Shown piece by piece: positions 50,021-57,195 of a stretch of DNA of 64,000 nucleotides. Origin of the DNA: a bacterium (GTDB lineage Bacteria > Electryoneota > JAOADG01). Location: assembly GCA_026417415.1 (NCBI GenBank), contig JAOADG010000024.1:25081-89080 (forward strand). Reading direction: 5' to 3'. Within the stretch, counting starts at the first letter, position 1; every line of letters starts with the position of its first letter. The position numbers and the translations under genes were made by a program. The notes below the pieces were generated by a model. The model was not told where the DNA came from, ran no database searches, and saw only the letters and a list, made by a program, of their open reading frames with translations.

Positions 50021-50872
50021 ATGATAGAAATGATTCAAAATACGTTTGTGCATATTCCCGGAATTTCTAAAGTTCGTGAAAATTTGATTTGGGAAAATCA
50101 AATCTATACTTGGAATCAGTTTAAGTGCAGCACGAAACAAATTTTAGGTCCTAAACTTACACAAGTGGTACATGGGTATCTTGCTGAATCATTTACCAGT
50201 TTTCAAGCAAATGATTTTTACTATTTTTATTCAAAATTGCCGTCAAATGAATCTTGGAGATTATTTCCTCATATCCAATCAAATGTTGCTTATATAGATA
50301 TTGAAACCACAGGACATCTCAACATCGGAAACCATATAACAACCATTTGCTTGTATGATGGAACCAATTTGTATTCTTATGTACGTGGTGAGAATCTTTA
50401 TCAATTTTGTAAAGACATTACCCACTATCAAACCATAGTTACTTACAATGGGAAGTCCTTTGATGTACCTTTTATTGAACATGAATTTCAAATGAAAATC
50501 AAGGCGATTCATCTGGATGTGATGCACTTTTTACGAGCACTTGGTATTCGTGGAGGACTTAAAAATTGTGAAAAGCAATTAGGCATTCATCGAGGGGATT
50601 TACTGGATGTTGATGGTTATGATGCAGTTTTATTATGGCATAAATATCAGTCAACAAAAAAACAGAAATTTTTAGAAACGCTCTTGGCATACAATGCATA
50701 TGATGCAATCCATCTTGAACAACTAATGATTGAAGTGTACAAACGATATACAAAAAATTTACCTTTTCAAGTTCCTACTGTCCAACTTCCCAAGCAAGAG
50801 TTGAAACTTCCATTTCAACCTCACTTATCAGCAATCTATGAAATCCGTGATTTACGAAACACGTGGTTCTAA
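50021..50872 (+). CDS. YprB-like ribonuclease H-fold 3'-5' exonuclease
   Basis: A 283-residue protein. DEDD-type nuclease motifs: YIDIETTG (Asp, Glu) near 91-98, TYNGKSFDVPFI (Asp) near 141-152, and YNAYDAIHLEQL (Asp) near 226-237, the arrangement of the YprB / RNase_H_2 family. Residues 1-80 resemble the linker preceding the nuclease in this family, with IPGISKVRE recalling a helix-hairpin-helix. Probably acts on RNA or DNA ends. Stand-alone gene followed by a 170-base spacer in which I see no further gene. Confidence 0.85.
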   Translation: MIEMIQNTFVHIPGISKVRENLIWENQIYTWNQFKCSTKQILGPKLTQVVHGYLAESFTSFQANDFYYFYSKLPSNESWRLFPHIQSNVAYIDIETTGHLNIGNHITTICLYDGTNLYSYVRGENLYQFCKDITHYQTIVTYNGKSFDVPFIEHEFQMKIKAIHLDVMHFLRALGIRGGLKNCEKQLGIHRGDLLDVDGYDAVLLWHKYQSTKKQKFLETLLAYNAYDAIHLEQLMIEVYKRYTKNLPFQVPTVQLPKQELKLPFQPHLSAIYEIRDLRNTWF

Positions 50873-51042: not shown

Positions 51043-51708
51043 ATGTCTGATACGATCAGTTACAATCAATGGCCACCTGGTTCTGCTTTGGTTATACGGC
51101 GGCTCGCACATGATCTTATGGCACCACTTACAGTCCTTGCGGGAAATTTGCAATTGTTTGCTTTAAGAAATGATTTACCCGAAGGGATGCATCAAAAAAT
51201 TGATGAACTTTATGAACAAACCAATGTTTTAGTCAATCTTATCCGAAAGACATCTTCTTATGCTGGCGAAAAAGCTTGGACTAAAAACAGTGGTGAAATT
51301 TGGGAAAGGTTTCAAGAAGGAGGATATTTTGCTGGTTCTATATTAGCAAGAAATGGTGTACAATTAGAAATTATTGAACCTAAATGTACACTTTCTCTAA
51401 TCGGCGAAACACAGTTTTGGACGGAATGGTTTGCTTCACTTTTAGCAAGTATGGCTGCTTTTATGGAACCGCATAGTACAATTTCATTAAAGGATGCATT
51501 GAATGGATTTCAATTAATTGCATCCAATGTGAATGTAAGTATTCCACTTTTTGAGGATTGGAAAAGTTTAATCGTGAAACCTAATCTAATTCATCCCAAT
51601 CCAGCGGTAAGAGTGTACACATTAGGATTAATGATTGCGAACTTGAAATGTGAATTGGAAATACAAAATGATCAGTTAACGCTCATTTATGTTACGATCG
51701 CCGATTGA
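51043..51708 (+). CDS. Degenerate histidine-kinase-like protein (H-box present, ATPase weak)
   Basis: A 221-residue soluble protein. Residues 17-37 (IRRLAHDLMAPLTVLAGNLQL) match a histidine-kinase H-box with the phosphoacceptor candidate H23; the following 60 residues look like the second dimerisation helix. The rest lacks recognisable N, G1 and G2 boxes, though LGLMIANLKCELEIQNDQLTLIYV resembles the end of a HATPase fold. It may be a phosphotransfer protein of the ChpT sort or a non-ATP-binding kinase relic. It ends one base before the end of the convergent BTAD regulator. Confidence 0.6.
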   Translation: MSDTISYNQWPPGSALVIRRLAHDLMAPLTVLAGNLQLFALRNDLPEGMHQKIDELYEQTNVLVNLIRKTSSYAGEKAWTKNSGEIWERFQEGGYFAGSILARNGVQLEIIEPKCTLSLIGETQFWTEWFASLLASMAAFMEPHSTISLKDALNGFQLIASNVNVSIPLFEDWKSLIVKPNLIHPNPAVRVYTLGLMIANLKCELEIQNDQLTLIYVTIAD

Positions 51709-51709
51709 C

Positions 51710-54700
51710 TCAAGTAGGAAGAAGCTTATTCTTACGTAAGTGTTGTATTTTTTCTAAACCAAGGTCGTTATGACTCTCTTGGAATTCGTTTTCTGCTTTT
51801 TCCAAAAACTCTTTGGCTTGTTTCTTTTTATTGTTTGCCCATAACACTTGAGCATATTCTAAGTAAAAATCTCCTAAATTTGGAACTAAAGAACTCTGTA
51901 ATTCAATTAATTCAATTGCGCGGGAAAGATGTTGCTCTGCATTGGCTAAGTTTCCTTCGCGAAATGCTATAGAACCCAGCCGATAGTAACATTGTGCTTC
52001 GTTAAGTTCATCGCTTTCTTGATGACAATAGGTCTTGCATTTTTCTAAGGTGGATTTTGCTTTAACACTCTGCTGATTTTCAATATAAACATCTGCCAAC
52101 AGCAGCCAACTTTCAATCAGTTCCGAAGACAATCCTTCTTTAGATAACAAGTCAATTGAATTGTCTAACAGTTTGATTGCTTCCGTAGTTTTTCCTTCTT
52201 GGATTGAAACTTTCGCCTTTACTTGTAGAAACAATCCAGTTTCTCGGATTGTAGCAGGTGAATCAGGTAAATTATCCAAACTTTTTTCTACCTGTTGTAG
52301 CAAAGTTTTTGCCCCAACCAAATCATTTTGTAACAACTTGACATTGGCTAATGAACGTTTGGTAGATATGAGTAAGATAGGTGAAAACTCTATTTGTTTT
52401 TTGATCGTCCTATTTTTTAACAACCGTTTAAGTTCTTCACGTTTGGTGTCTAAACCAATTTCAGGGGACAGTGGTTTATGTGCTTCAATTTTTTCTATAA
52501 TGAGATTATATACACTAATCGCATCTTTTACTTTGTCAAGTTTCACCAATAAATCGCAATGAGATAGTATAATGGAAATCAATTCTTCTGGGTGTTGGGT
52601 AAGGTTTTCAATTGCTGCTTTGTATGCTAAAGAAGAGAATTGCATACACCGACTTTTATCTCCATAAGCATACCATTGTTTTGCGCTTTCCATTAAGTAA
52701 CGTGCCGCATTGATCTGATCACCTGCATGGTAATAATAATAAGACAAGGCCTCAATATTGATTTCACCATCCCATTGTTCAATCGCTGCCACGATATTCT
52801 TAAAAAGTCGTCTTCGTTCTAAAGAAGAAATGGTATCAGCAATAGCGATTTTAATCAGTTGATGGTTAAAAGCAAAAAGCAAATCATTGCCACGTTCAAT
52901 ATGATGAATGAAATTCCGTGATTCTAAATCCACAAAAATATCTTCAATTGTATCAACATCTAAGCCACTCAATAAACTTACAAATTCAATAGAAAATTCA
53001 CCGATCAACAAAGAGATGGATTTTAATAATTCTGAACTTTGATCCGATAGTTTGCTTAAACGAAGGTTGGTAATTTTTAAAAGCAAAGGTGGAATCAACT
53101 TGTCAAGTGAGGTGATGCTGAAATCTGGTCTATCTTCTAATAATGGACTATGGATAAAGTCCAAATTTTCTTCTAAAAGAAAATTTGCAAGTTCAACAGC
53201 AAATAAAGGAATGCCACAACTATAACGAGAAATTTTCACCAAATCTTTTCTATTGAGTTGTTCAGTTACACGAGTAGCACGTGAATTGATTAAAGCAATA
53301 GTTTCATCATCGCTTAAACTCTTTAGATCGATTTTGATTAACCGACCGGTTCTTGCTGTACTAATAAGGGAGGAGGCAATTACATCTTCGGTAGTTTCTT
53401 CAAAAGTACGAAAAATACCAATCAACAATATTGGATAGCGCTTTGTTTCTTGTGCAAGGGATGCAAAAAAGTTGAACACAATTTCGGTTGCCCAATGTAA
53501 ATCATCCATTGCAATGAGTACTGGATTGGTAGTAGATACAGAAAGAATCCACTTTTTCACTTCAGAGATAAAATGATTTTCTTCTGTGGGTTTGGTAATA
53601 GAAAGTGGATCCGTTTGAAGCAAAGATTCTAATTCGCTACGTTGTTTATTGGAAAGATGACGGTTCTTTAAAAACGATTGTAAAATTTGAAATACAGAAT
53701 TCAGAGGTTGAGAATTTGGAATTTCATCATTTTCACCTAATCCCACAATCATGGTTTCAGGAATTTCTTCCAAAAAGCGCTGAAAAAGACGTGTCTTTCC
53801 AATACCCATCTCACCGGAAATGATTACCACGTGGCCTAACTTTTCGTGAATTACAATTTCAGCTGCCTGCTGTAAGGTAAAGAGCTCTTCTTTTCTTCCA
53901 ATAAATACATCGTGACTTGAAGGGGATGTAAACGAAACTAAACTCTCATCTTCTTTTCTACTGACAGGCAATTCTTCTTTGAATGAGGGTTTTATCGTCA
54001 GTAGCTCTTCATAACTTGATAATGGTTCCTCTTTTGGTTCTTCTGTCTGAATGTTTTTTGTAGATATGCTTGTTGTTGATTCGAAGGAAACACCCGTTAA
54101 ATTGGGCGGTTCAAGTTCACGTACTTTACTATCATCACCTAAACGAATGGCTTCAGCCAATTGAAAAATGGACTGTTTTGGTGGTGCATGATACTCGCGA
54201 CGCATGATTTCAACATACGTCGCGTACTGCCTTAATGCTGCAGTATTTTTTCCTTGACTGGCATACGCTCGAATGATTCCTTCATGAGCTGCATCCAAGT
54301 CACTTTGAATGGAAAGTGCACGCATGAAATATTCTATGGCTTTTGAATACTGCTTCATTTGGCTATACGTGTTTCCAATCTCAATCATACAATCAAGCAC
54401 TTTTCTTTGAAGTTCTTCACGACGGTGAAACAACCATTCTTCCCAATCGTCTAAATTTCGTAAAGTAAACCCATCTAAAAATTTCCCGCGATAACGCTCA
54501 ACTGCACGAATCAATGCATTTAAACGTTCAGTTCCGATTGGGGTACTAAGATCTTGGAGAAAGAGTTCTACATCAGTAACAATAGGAAAATCGGGATCGA
54601 TTTGACAGTCAGTACGATTGGCTAAAATAGGTTCTAAACGATCGTCTAATTCCTTAAAAAGTTTGCGAATATTCCAAAGGGCGTAACGTAAATTATACCG

Positions 54701-54904
54701 TGCTTGATTTTCTGGTGATTCACCCCAAAACATGGTAATTAAACGGTCACGAGGAACAGCAAGATTACGATTATCAAGTAGATAACAAAAAAGCCCTAAT
54801 ACTTTTTGGGTAGCAAAGTCAGTAATTTTTTTACCTTGCCAAGTAAGTCGTACACCGCCAAAAAAACTTGCAAATACTTGATTTTTAATTGGTGATGGTA
54901 GCAT
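51710..54904 (-). CDS. BTAD/AfsR-like regulator: winged helix, BTAD, AAA ATPase, TPR
   Basis: A 1064-residue cytoplasmic regulator. N-terminal OmpR-type winged-helix about 10-100 (LAVPRDRLITMFWGE ... YALWNIRKLF), BTAD helical domain about 115-255 (RYRGKFLDGFTLRNLDDWEEW), an acidic linker, AAA/STAND ATPase about 330-600 with Walker A GEMGIGKTRL near 363 and Walker B-like VLIAMDDLHWA, then about ten TPR repeats 700-1060. Similar proteins (AfsR, SARP-like) couple signals to DNA binding; here no target operon is evident. It sits tail-to-tail with the kinase-like protein. Start is weak (AGGA two bases before ATG). Confidence 0.9.
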   Translation of the reverse strand: MLPSPIKNQVFASFFGGVRLTWQGKKITDFATQKVLGLFCYLLDNRNLAVPRDRLITMFWGESPENQARYNLRYALWNIRKLFKELDDRLEPILANRTDCQIDPDFPIVTDVELFLQDLSTPIGTERLNALIRAVERYRGKFLDGFTLRNLDDWEEWLFHRREELQRKVLDCMIEIGNTYSQMKQYSKAIEYFMRALSIQSDLDAAHEGIIRAYASQGKNTAALRQYATYVEIMRREYHAPPKQSIFQLAEAIRLGDDSKVRELEPPNLTGVSFESTTSISTKNIQTEEPKEEPLSSYEELLTIKPSFKEELPVSRKEDESLVSFTSPSSHDVFIGRKEELFTLQQAAEIVIHEKLGHVVIISGEMGIGKTRLFQRFLEEIPETMIVGLGENDEIPNSQPLNSVFQILQSFLKNRHLSNKQRSELESLLQTDPLSITKPTEENHFISEVKKWILSVSTTNPVLIAMDDLHWATEIVFNFFASLAQETKRYPILLIGIFRTFEETTEDVIASSLISTARTGRLIKIDLKSLSDDETIALINSRATRVTEQLNRKDLVKISRYSCGIPLFAVELANFLLEENLDFIHSPLLEDRPDFSITSLDKLIPPLLLKITNLRLSKLSDQSSELLKSISLLIGEFSIEFVSLLSGLDVDTIEDIFVDLESRNFIHHIERGNDLLFAFNHQLIKIAIADTISSLERRRLFKNIVAAIEQWDGEINIEALSYYYYHAGDQINAARYLMESAKQWYAYGDKSRCMQFSSLAYKAAIENLTQHPEELISIILSHCDLLVKLDKVKDAISVYNLIIEKIEAHKPLSPEIGLDTKREELKRLLKNRTIKKQIEFSPILLISTKRSLANVKLLQNDLVGAKTLLQQVEKSLDNLPDSPATIRETGLFLQVKAKVSIQEGKTTEAIKLLDNSIDLLSKEGLSSELIESWLLLADVYIENQQSVKAKSTLEKCKTYCHQESDELNEAQCYYRLGSIAFREGNLANAEQHLSRAIELIELQSSLVPNLGDFYLEYAQVLWANNKKKQAKEFLEKAENEFQESHNDLGLEKIQHLRKNKLLPT

Positions 54905-55102
54905 TTCCTAAGAAAAAATGGTTCATCAGATATTTTCATTTGACAATGTAAAGCAATTAACGGTATTCTTCAAGCAAACTCAGTGTAAAGAAATGAATCA
55001 AGTGTGTTGAAAGACATAAGAAAATTATTATTTGAACGTAAAAGTATTTAGGTCTCGTATTCTATCTTGATATATATTTTATTCACTTGATTGGAGTAAA
55101 CG

Positions 55103-55966
55103 ATGGCAACAGATCATTTGGGACCCTTTGATTTGGATATAGACGTGATTGAAGCCAACGTTGTTCGGACAGGACCCGGAAACTTTCGACTTGGCCATAA
55201 CGATATATGGGGACAGTTTAGTGTTCGGATGATTGGTCGCTCGGACGATGACATTAAAGCCGAATTAAGAAAACATGCATTGAAAAAGAAATATACCCGA
55301 TTCACCTTTGCACTTGCTGATACGATTAGACAGGCCTATGAAAGAATGTGCAAAGATTATCATAAATTCCGTGGAAACGGGTATTTAGACACTTTGAAAC
55401 ATCCATATGCACCTCATAAACACGACTACCCATGTCCAGTATGTAAAAAAGTTTATAGGCCACCGTCGGAAGAATTAAAAATGGATTTAAAAAATACAAG
55501 AAGGTTTTCTTCGGGTTCAAATTTGCATTTAGTGGTTGAAGATGAAGTTAAAATTGATCCAACTTTGAAACCCTGGGAAATTGATGATCAAGGGCAAAAA
55601 ATTCGGTATCGTCCCGGAGAAGAAAAACAAATCAAACCATGGGAATGGGATCATCCCGATTTAGTCCCATTAGATGAAGAAGAGTTGTTTACACAAAGCA
55701 AAAATGGTTCAGAAACAGAGAAAAAAGAAATTAAAGCTCCCATTGCAGAATGGTTGCTGACAAATGAAACGGATTTAGAACCAATAGAAAACCAAGAAAA
55801 GTCAAGTGAACCTAAAAAAGAAGAAATGCCTATCGCAGAATGGTTAATCGAAGAGGATGAAACTAAACCCACGAATGACCTTTCAAATCCAAAACAGGAT
55901 GATCAAGTACAAAAAAAAGATAAAAAGCCAAAGCAACCTTGGGAAGATGAAAGTGAATCTGAATGA
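55103..55966 (+). CDS. GIY-YIG-like protein with CPVC motif and repeated KPWE / PIAEWL segments
   Basis: A 287-residue acidic protein. Residues 24-110 follow the GIY-YIG layout: GPGNFRLG (GIY-like), FSVRMIGRSDDDIKAELRKHA (YIG and the helix-1 region), and AYERMCKDYHKF (catalytic-Glu helix), then CPVC at C111-C114. Where active enzymes have Arg in the first helix it has Glu (E54), so it may be inactive. The C-terminal half is low-complexity and acidic: KPWE at 156-159 and 178-181, QPWE at 278-281, and PIAEWLL at 213-219 repeated as PIAEWLI at 243-249. Such short repeats look like linear binding motifs. Its stop overlaps the next start by 4 bases. Confidence 0.6.
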   Translation: MATDHLGPFDLDIDVIEANVVRTGPGNFRLGHNDIWGQFSVRMIGRSDDDIKAELRKHALKKKYTRFTFALADTIRQAYERMCKDYHKFRGNGYLDTLKHPYAPHKHDYPCPVCKKVYRPPSEELKMDLKNTRRFSSGSNLHLVVEDEVKIDPTLKPWEIDDQGQKIRYRPGEEKQIKPWEWDHPDLVPLDEEELFTQSKNGSETEKKEIKAPIAEWLLTNETDLEPIENQEKSSEPKKEEMPIAEWLIEEDETKPTNDLSNPKQDDQVQKKDKKPKQPWEDESESE

Positions 55967-57195
55967 AGTGGTTTAAGACCATACTAATTTTTGCGATATT
56001 TACCATTACCTACAATCATGTATCAGCACAACCTGCCGATACTTTGCGTGTTCTGGTGTACAATATCTTAAATTATCCAAATTCCCAAGGTTCACAACGT
56101 AATCCATACTTTCGCAAAATCTTTCGTTACGTTAAACCGGATGTCATTTTACTAGGTGAAATGATATCTCAGGTTGGCATTGATTCAATGCTAACCAGAA
56201 ATCTCAATATTGCTGGAACGACCGACTGGTCAGCAGCACCTTTTATTGATGGACCTGATACGGATGGTGCTTTGTTGTATCGTACTACAAAGGTTCAATT
56301 TTTAGGACAAGACACCATTGGTACGGAATTAAGAAATATCAATGTGTATCGCATTAAACCCCTCAATGGCGATTCAACCACCATTACAACGTTTTTATTG
56401 ATGCACTTGAAAGCCAGTACTGGAAATAGCAATGTTCAACAAAGAGGAAGAGAGGCATCCCGTGCAAGACAGTATGCCAATAATTTGCCACCCAATTCTA
56501 AATTTGTCTATTGTGGAGATTTGAATTTATACACTTCCACAGAAGTTGCTTACAATGTCTTAACTTCAGATGGAACGAACATCAACGGCAAAGCATATGA
56601 TCCTTTAACAGCGGGAACTTGGACTGACAACGCTGCTTTTGCTTCGATTCATACACAATCTACAAGAACTACACAGTTGTCAGATGGAGGTGCTACGGGT
56701 GGTTTGGATGATCGTTTTGACTTTATCTTGCCATCTATGGCATTTTTAGACACCACTTCAGCGAAACTACTTAACAACACATACGTTGCATTAGGAAATG
56801 ATGGAAACCATTTTAATCAAGCAATAAACCAACTTCCAAATCTTGCAGTTCCTGATTCTATAGCAGAAGCATTGTATTTTGCTTCGGATCATTTACCCTT
56901 ATACGGTGATTTGATTTACTATAGACCCATCCAACTTCGACCCAGTACACCGCTCAATCTTACTGCACACAGAGAAGAAAACGCTATCCGTCTTCGCTGG
57001 AATCGGGTCAATACCGACACTTTGGGAAATCCAATCCTCATCCAGGGTTACAAAATCTATTCAAGCAATACAGGCTACGGGAATTGGACACTACACCAAA
57101 CCATTAATTCACCTTTAGATACAACCTATTTAGATACATCCATCCAACAACAAATCAATCGGTATTATCACGTCAAGGCATTCCGTAACCCATAA
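55963..57195 (+). CDS. Secreted endonuclease/exonuclease/phosphatase-fold protein with FN3 domain
   Basis: A 410-residue exported protein: signal peptide 1-22 (cleavage after VSA), EEP fold about 28-325 and a fibronectin-III domain about 330-407. EEP motifs are VYNILNYP (Asn ligand), LLGEM (metal Glu), VYCGDLNLY (Asp-x-Asn pair) and FASDHLPLYGDL (Asp-His base). No C-terminal sorting domain, so it may stay periplasmic or leave by another route. Possible extracellular nuclease or phosphodiesterase. It is coupled to the GIY-YIG-like gene and closed by a terminator 2 bases later. Confidence 0.88.
   Translation: MKWFKTILIFAIFTITYNHVSAQPADTLRVLVYNILNYPNSQGSQRNPYFRKIFRYVKPDVILLGEMISQVGIDSMLTRNLNIAGTTDWSAAPFIDGPDTDGALLYRTTKVQFLGQDTIGTELRNINVYRIKPLNGDSTTITTFLLMHLKASTGNSNVQQRGREASRARQYANNLPPNSKFVYCGDLNLYTSTEVAYNVLTSDGTNINGKAYDPLTAGTWTDNAAFASIHTQSTRTTQLSDGGATGGLDDRFDFILPSMAFLDTTSAKLLNNTYVALGNDGNHFNQAINQLPNLAVPDSIAEALYFASDHLPLYGDLIYYRPIQLRPSTPLNLTAHREENAIRLRWNRVNTDTLGNPILIQGYKIYSSNTGYGNWTLHQTINSPLDTTYLDTSIQQQINRYYHVKAFRNP

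Follow-up and report, generated by a model that had tools for sequence, protein, structure and literature searches.

The hallmarks of the GIY-YIG superfamily are its two name-giving motifs, GIY and YIG, an Arg in the centre and a Glu towards the C-terminus; the UvrC+ lineage adds an Asn (PMC1564403). In human ANKLE1, the substitutions E551A and N565D each abolish activity, and no activity is detectable once Y453 has lost its phenolic oxygen (PMC10287932). A second described system concerns short docking peptides: (R/K)PWE is the PEX7-binding motif of the eukaryotic proteins PEX39 and PEX13, and the Trp is its most critical residue for the binding of PEX7 by PEX39 (PMC12339391). We analyzed a bacterial gene that brings these two elements together, since its product joins a head related to GIY-YIG domains to an acidic tail with repeated tryptophan motifs. 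The comparisons presented below suggest that this protein probably serves as an adaptor for binding and not as a nuclease. Coordinates refer to the window, i.e., the whole stretch of 64,000 nucleotides that was analyzed.

The gene and its relatives

The open reading frame at 55103-55966 starts with ATG, is preceded by GGAG at a distance of six bases and has no internal stop; it encodes 287 residues, and its coordinates agree with those given by an earlier sequence-only reading. The gene and its main parts are the following:

55103-55966, + strand: whole gene, 287 aa, divergent GIY-YIG head and acidic motif tail (open reading frame; orthologue P0002)
55093-55096, + strand: GGAG ribosome-binding-like site 5' of the ATG (sequence)
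55103-55450, + strand: head, residues 1-116, divergent and catalytically degenerate GIY-YIG domain (homology, alignment)

The same reading had assigned a GIY-YIG layout to the head. Direct searches of the protein against Pfam, NCBIfam and PDB returned no match, but the assignment holds when intermediate sequences are used. A whole-genome search identified one full-length orthologue (P0002, 253 aa, in genome G001 of the same family; E=1.6e-83, 57% identity overall) and a relative of 121 aa in a KSB1 MAG (JADHWK010000031; E=5.2e-13). Short relatives were also found on plasmids of Salinigranum rubrum (33% identity) and Nocardiopsis flavescens (30% identity). The Nocardiopsis protein (QKW32549.1) is annotated as a member of the GIY-YIG nuclease family. 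Its Salinigranum counterpart has a PF01541 match just short of the curated cut-off (E=8e-4).

Profiles of these sequences were then compared with the GIY-YIG domains of the phylum, which are of the URI type and UvrC, using hhalign. The profile of the three short relatives aligned to them in the canonical register with a probability of 95% (E=2.6e-8), and the five-sequence profile reached 87.5% against the same domains (E=3.6e-6). None of 100 column-shuffled profiles attained the observed score, and the probabilities fell to 0.4% and 0.1%, respectively, when the profiles were reversed. Among PDB entries, UvrC (1yd6) was the one that the family profile matched best, in register but weakly (E=0.15). 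The profile built from the window protein and its orthologue did not match the GIY-YIG domains (probability <1%): the head has diverged too far to be recognized directly. Judging from these alignments, the head is a divergent GIY-YIG homologue that is linked to the superfamily through its short relatives.

The combination of head and tail is very rare and was found in two of the 39 genomes of the phylum. The head was present in three of the 386 genomes of a broad sample and in none of the 101 genomes of another phylum, a search run without a positive control. No relatives were found in viral contigs or in phages, and a collection of genome contigs yielded only the KSB1 protein. Likewise, the protein had no convincing match among the phage and defence families of PHROGs and PADLOC. 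On the plasmids, the Salinigranum homologue (NZ_CP026312; L006, 2965-3312) is unannotated in the gene table used, and at the Nocardiopsis locus (L005, 2498-3333) the short GIY-YIG gene overlaps one for a hypothetical protein and precedes one for an ATP-binding protein, an arrangement that may be an operon.

Genomic neighbourhood

Two genes flank the head-tail gene in the window:

51710-54904, - strand: BTAD-AAA_16-TPR regulator, 1064 aa, divergent neighbour (near the gene in both genomes)
55963-57195, + strand: downstream gene with a weak Exo_endo_phos match and a signal-peptide-like start, overlapping the stop codon by ATGA (not adjacent to the orthologue)

The regulators of the window and G001 loci are 44% identical, and both head-bearing genomes have the regulator close to the head-tail gene and in divergent orientation, a placement that suggests a common regulatory setting. 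One could therefore propose that the head is a protein-protein module only and that the protein acts with the regulator in transcriptional control, as its co-regulator or partner. Peptide tails of acidic or hydrophobic character are common ligands of TPR domains, which would suit such a role. The regulator, however, is found in eight of the 39 genomes of the phylum, against two for the head-tail protein; six of the eight are devoid of the head gene, which makes the link to the regulator suggestive only. In addition, the two genes are separated by a third one in G001, and neither a conserved intergenic motif nor a shared promoter motif was found between the two loci. We regard this partnership as unlikely.

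Several other genes were noted around the two loci. The intervening gene of G001 (L013, 3270-3887) is thioredoxin-like and absent at the window locus. In the window, positions 51043-51708 encode an orphan protein in which Pfam detected a HisKA-like helix (E=2e-5) but no ATPase domain; it adjoins a protein of the RNase H superfamily (RNase_H_2) at 50021-50872. The protein encoded at 55963-57195 is secreted-looking and resembles endonucleases/exonucleases/phosphatases.

Catalytic residues and a putative zinc site

The positions of the head that correspond to the catalytic core of GIY-YIG domains were located from the alignments:

55178-55186, + strand: GIY box, reads G-N-F, with the Tyr replaced by F28 (alignment)
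55229-55237, + strand: YIG box, reads M-I-G, with the Tyr replaced by M43 (alignment)
55262-55264, + strand: E54 at the conserved helix Arg position (alignment)
55346-55348, + strand: M82 at the metal-binding Glu position (alignment)
55391-55393, + strand: T97 at the C-terminal Asn position (alignment)
55361-55444, + strand: H87, H100, C111 and C114, putative zinc site (invariant in 5/5 homologues; zinc inferred)

The presence of E54 at the Arg position of the first helix, as originally pointed out, was confirmed in the hhalign and MAFFT registers. This is one replacement among five, and the other four lost core positions had been missed. The orthologue presents F, L, E, C and N at these positions, such that four of the five losses are common to both proteins. 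The KSB1 protein presents F, Y, A, E and N, and all five positions are intact in the Nocardiopsis and Salinigranum relatives. Because every core catalytic position is replaced, a nuclease function of the head is unsupported, and we infer from the sequence that the protein has no cleavage activity of the GIY-YIG type.

Alternatively, the protein might be an active nuclease with a rebuilt GIY-YIG site, formed by other residues (H58, E54, the conserved D48-D50 or E80), which the tail would bring to its substrate. An active site that is unusual for the superfamily has been reported for R.Hpy188I (PMC2630997), and the strongly conserved head does contain H58 as well as acidic residues in the vicinity of the YIG box. 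Against this, all five core positions are replaced, and ANKLE1 is inactivated by losing either the Glu or the Asn (PMC10287932). Moreover, H58 is replaced by Gln in the orthologue and by Trp in two relatives. A rebuilt nuclease appears quite improbable on these grounds.

Between the window protein and the orthologue, the dN of the head is 0.19 with saturated dS, which indicates that strong purifying selection constrains the domain even though it is catalytically empty. The head also carries an H..H..CxxC set at residues 87-114, overlooked previously, whose four residues are invariant in all five homologues. This suggests a structural zinc site at H87, H100, C111 and C114.

The acidic tail and its tryptophan motifs

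The tail (residues 123-287) is acidic, as had been described, with a net charge of -20, and 76% of its residues are disorder-promoting. The short motifs previously listed are all present, with PWE at residues 157, 179 and 279 and the PIAEWLL and PIAEWLI copies exactly 30 residues apart:

55568-55579, + strand: KPWE copy 1, residues 156-159 (orthologue: KPWE)
55634-55645, + strand: KPWE copy 2, residues 178-181 (orthologue: KPWM)
55739-55759, + strand: PIAEWLL copy 1, residues 213-219 (orthologue: gap)
55829-55849, + strand: PIAEWLI copy 2, residues 243-249 (orthologue: IPEWL)
55934-55945, + strand: QPWE copy 3, residues 278-281, near the C-terminus (orthologue: KPWE)

Identity to the orthologue is 73% in the head and 42% in the tail. 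Within the tail, an ungapped module of 49 residues (LKPWEIDDQGQKIR...IKPWEWDHPDLVPLDEEEL in the window protein, LKPWEMDEEGKKIR...SKPWMFDDPNTIPLDVEHL in the orthologue) shows 23 identities and includes KPW motifs, and both proteins have the third [KQ]PWE close to their C-terminal end. In the MAFFT alignment, a method that tends to align Trp, the orthologue retains W158, W180, W247 and W280, W182 is replaced by Phe and W217 falls in a gap. By this pattern, KPW is the element that has been conserved, whereas the duplicated PIAEWL is found in the window protein only. Since just two proteins with a tail are known and they belong to one family, the conservation of the motifs is that of a single comparison. 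The earlier proposal of a partner-binding tail is strengthened by the retention of all three KPW motifs in the sole full-length orthologue; its PIAEWL part did not stand, since the orthologue has a single IPEWL in place of the duplication.

One could also take the motifs for remnants of biased composition or of duplication, in a tail that is a solubility or linker extension only. The loss of the PIAEWL pair in the orthologue is compatible with this idea, as is the frequency with which any repeated 6-mer arose in simple, composition-preserving shuffles of the tail (96/20,000). Repeated 6-mers containing Trp were less common (10/20,000), however, and at least three PWE were observed in only one of the 20,000 shuffles. 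The four Trp retained by the orthologue also argue against leftovers, as do synonymous codons that have drifted while the peptides remained unchanged: the PIAEWL copies use CCC ATT .. TTG and CCT ATC .. TTA, and the Pro codons of the PWE copies are CCC, CCA and CCT. Identity between the PIAEWL copies at the DNA level is 16/21 bases inside the motif and 13/39 in the flanks. These codon differences and the drop in identity just outside the motif indicate that the repeat is not a fresh DNA duplication. A tail that is an extension only seems quite improbable.

The tail was absent from every other gene of the 39 genomes of the phylum. We also considered whether the motifs constitute a genome-wide docking code. 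In the host genome, which was read as stretches, the other occurrences of I[AP]EWL or KPWE were not in comparable tails and this idea was rejected. By sequence reading, the corresponding open reading frames encode a glycosyltransferase, a protein kinase, a glycyl-tRNA-synthetase-like protein, a short product and a membrane-anchored protein.

Structure prediction

The head was folded from a two-sequence alignment of the window protein and its orthologue, which gave a model of low quality (pLDDT 60). The model contains strands at residues 15-24, 27-32 and 35-40, a helix at 48-61, a strand at 66-72 and a helix at 75-90, an order that is compatible with GIY-YIG. Its best matches were to unrelated folds and were not significant (Foldseek E 0.88, VIA-align Z 4.0), with no GIY-YIG structure among the matches; given the low quality of the model, this outcome counts neither for nor against a GIY-YIG fold. 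The full-length protein folded from its sequence alone reached a pLDDT of 40, and this model was discarded. Another fold that resembles GIY-YIG through short motifs would account for these structural searches and for the missing matches of the protein and of its two-sequence profile, but it is very improbable given the significant pairwise homology of the head to short relatives that match GIY-YIG in register, with shuffle controls.

A proposed GIY-YIG-derived adaptor and its comparison with known systems

Taken together, our results moderately favor the interpretation of the protein as a GIY-YIG-derived pseudo-nuclease adaptor, with a non-catalytic binding head and a disordered tail for multivalent docking. 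The head would retain the GIY-YIG fold, with a zinc ion as a staple, and would bind nucleic acid or a protein surface without cutting. The tail would be disordered and would dock one partner through several weak Trp motifs of the form KPW-[EM]-hydrophobic-D, while I-[AP]-E-W-L would provide another motif or a short helix, and the protein would thereby recruit or cluster this partner. More tentatively, these proteins may represent a lineage-specific class of bacterial adaptors, in which an inactivated, zinc-stapled GIY-YIG nuclease is joined to a disordered tail with three copies of a new docking motif, KPW-[EM]-hydrophobic-D. Pseudo-enzymes are common elsewhere; in the literature searched, no GIY-YIG pseudo-nuclease was described. 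If this interpretation is true, the gene would offer a bacterial case of a GIY-YIG domain kept under purifying selection after catalytic loss and joined to a multivalent tail of Trp motifs. It would then be a compact model of how a nuclease fold turns into a binding scaffold.

The tail shares its tetrapeptide with PEX39 and PEX13 of peroxisomal import, with two KPWE and one QPWE in the window protein. Those proteins, in contrast, are eukaryotic and bind PEX7. A search for a PEX7-like WD40 partner found no PF00400 match in the genome (the identical search was positive in two of 14 controls). Since no WD40 protein was detected, the likeness is read as likely convergence. By analogy, the comparison shows only that a KPWE tetrapeptide can suffice as a docking motif.

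For the head, UvrC and the URI/YhbQ-type GIY-YIG domains (PF01541) are homologous in register by profile comparison via the short relatives. The window protein differs from them by the loss of both Tyr, the Arg, the Glu and the Asn, by its extra His/Cys set and by the absence of a Pfam match. The COG1833 GIY-YIG family differs in that the Asn is retained in the short relatives described here. The closest systems are these short GIY-YIG proteins themselves (Nocardiopsis QKW32549.1, the Salinigranum NZ_CP026312 open reading frame and KSB1 JADHWK010000031), which present the same head, the same order of motifs and the same H87/H100/C111/C114 set. Unlike the window protein, they are tailless, measure 115-122 aa and retain most or all of the core catalytic residues, the KSB1 protein being without the GIY Tyr and the Arg.
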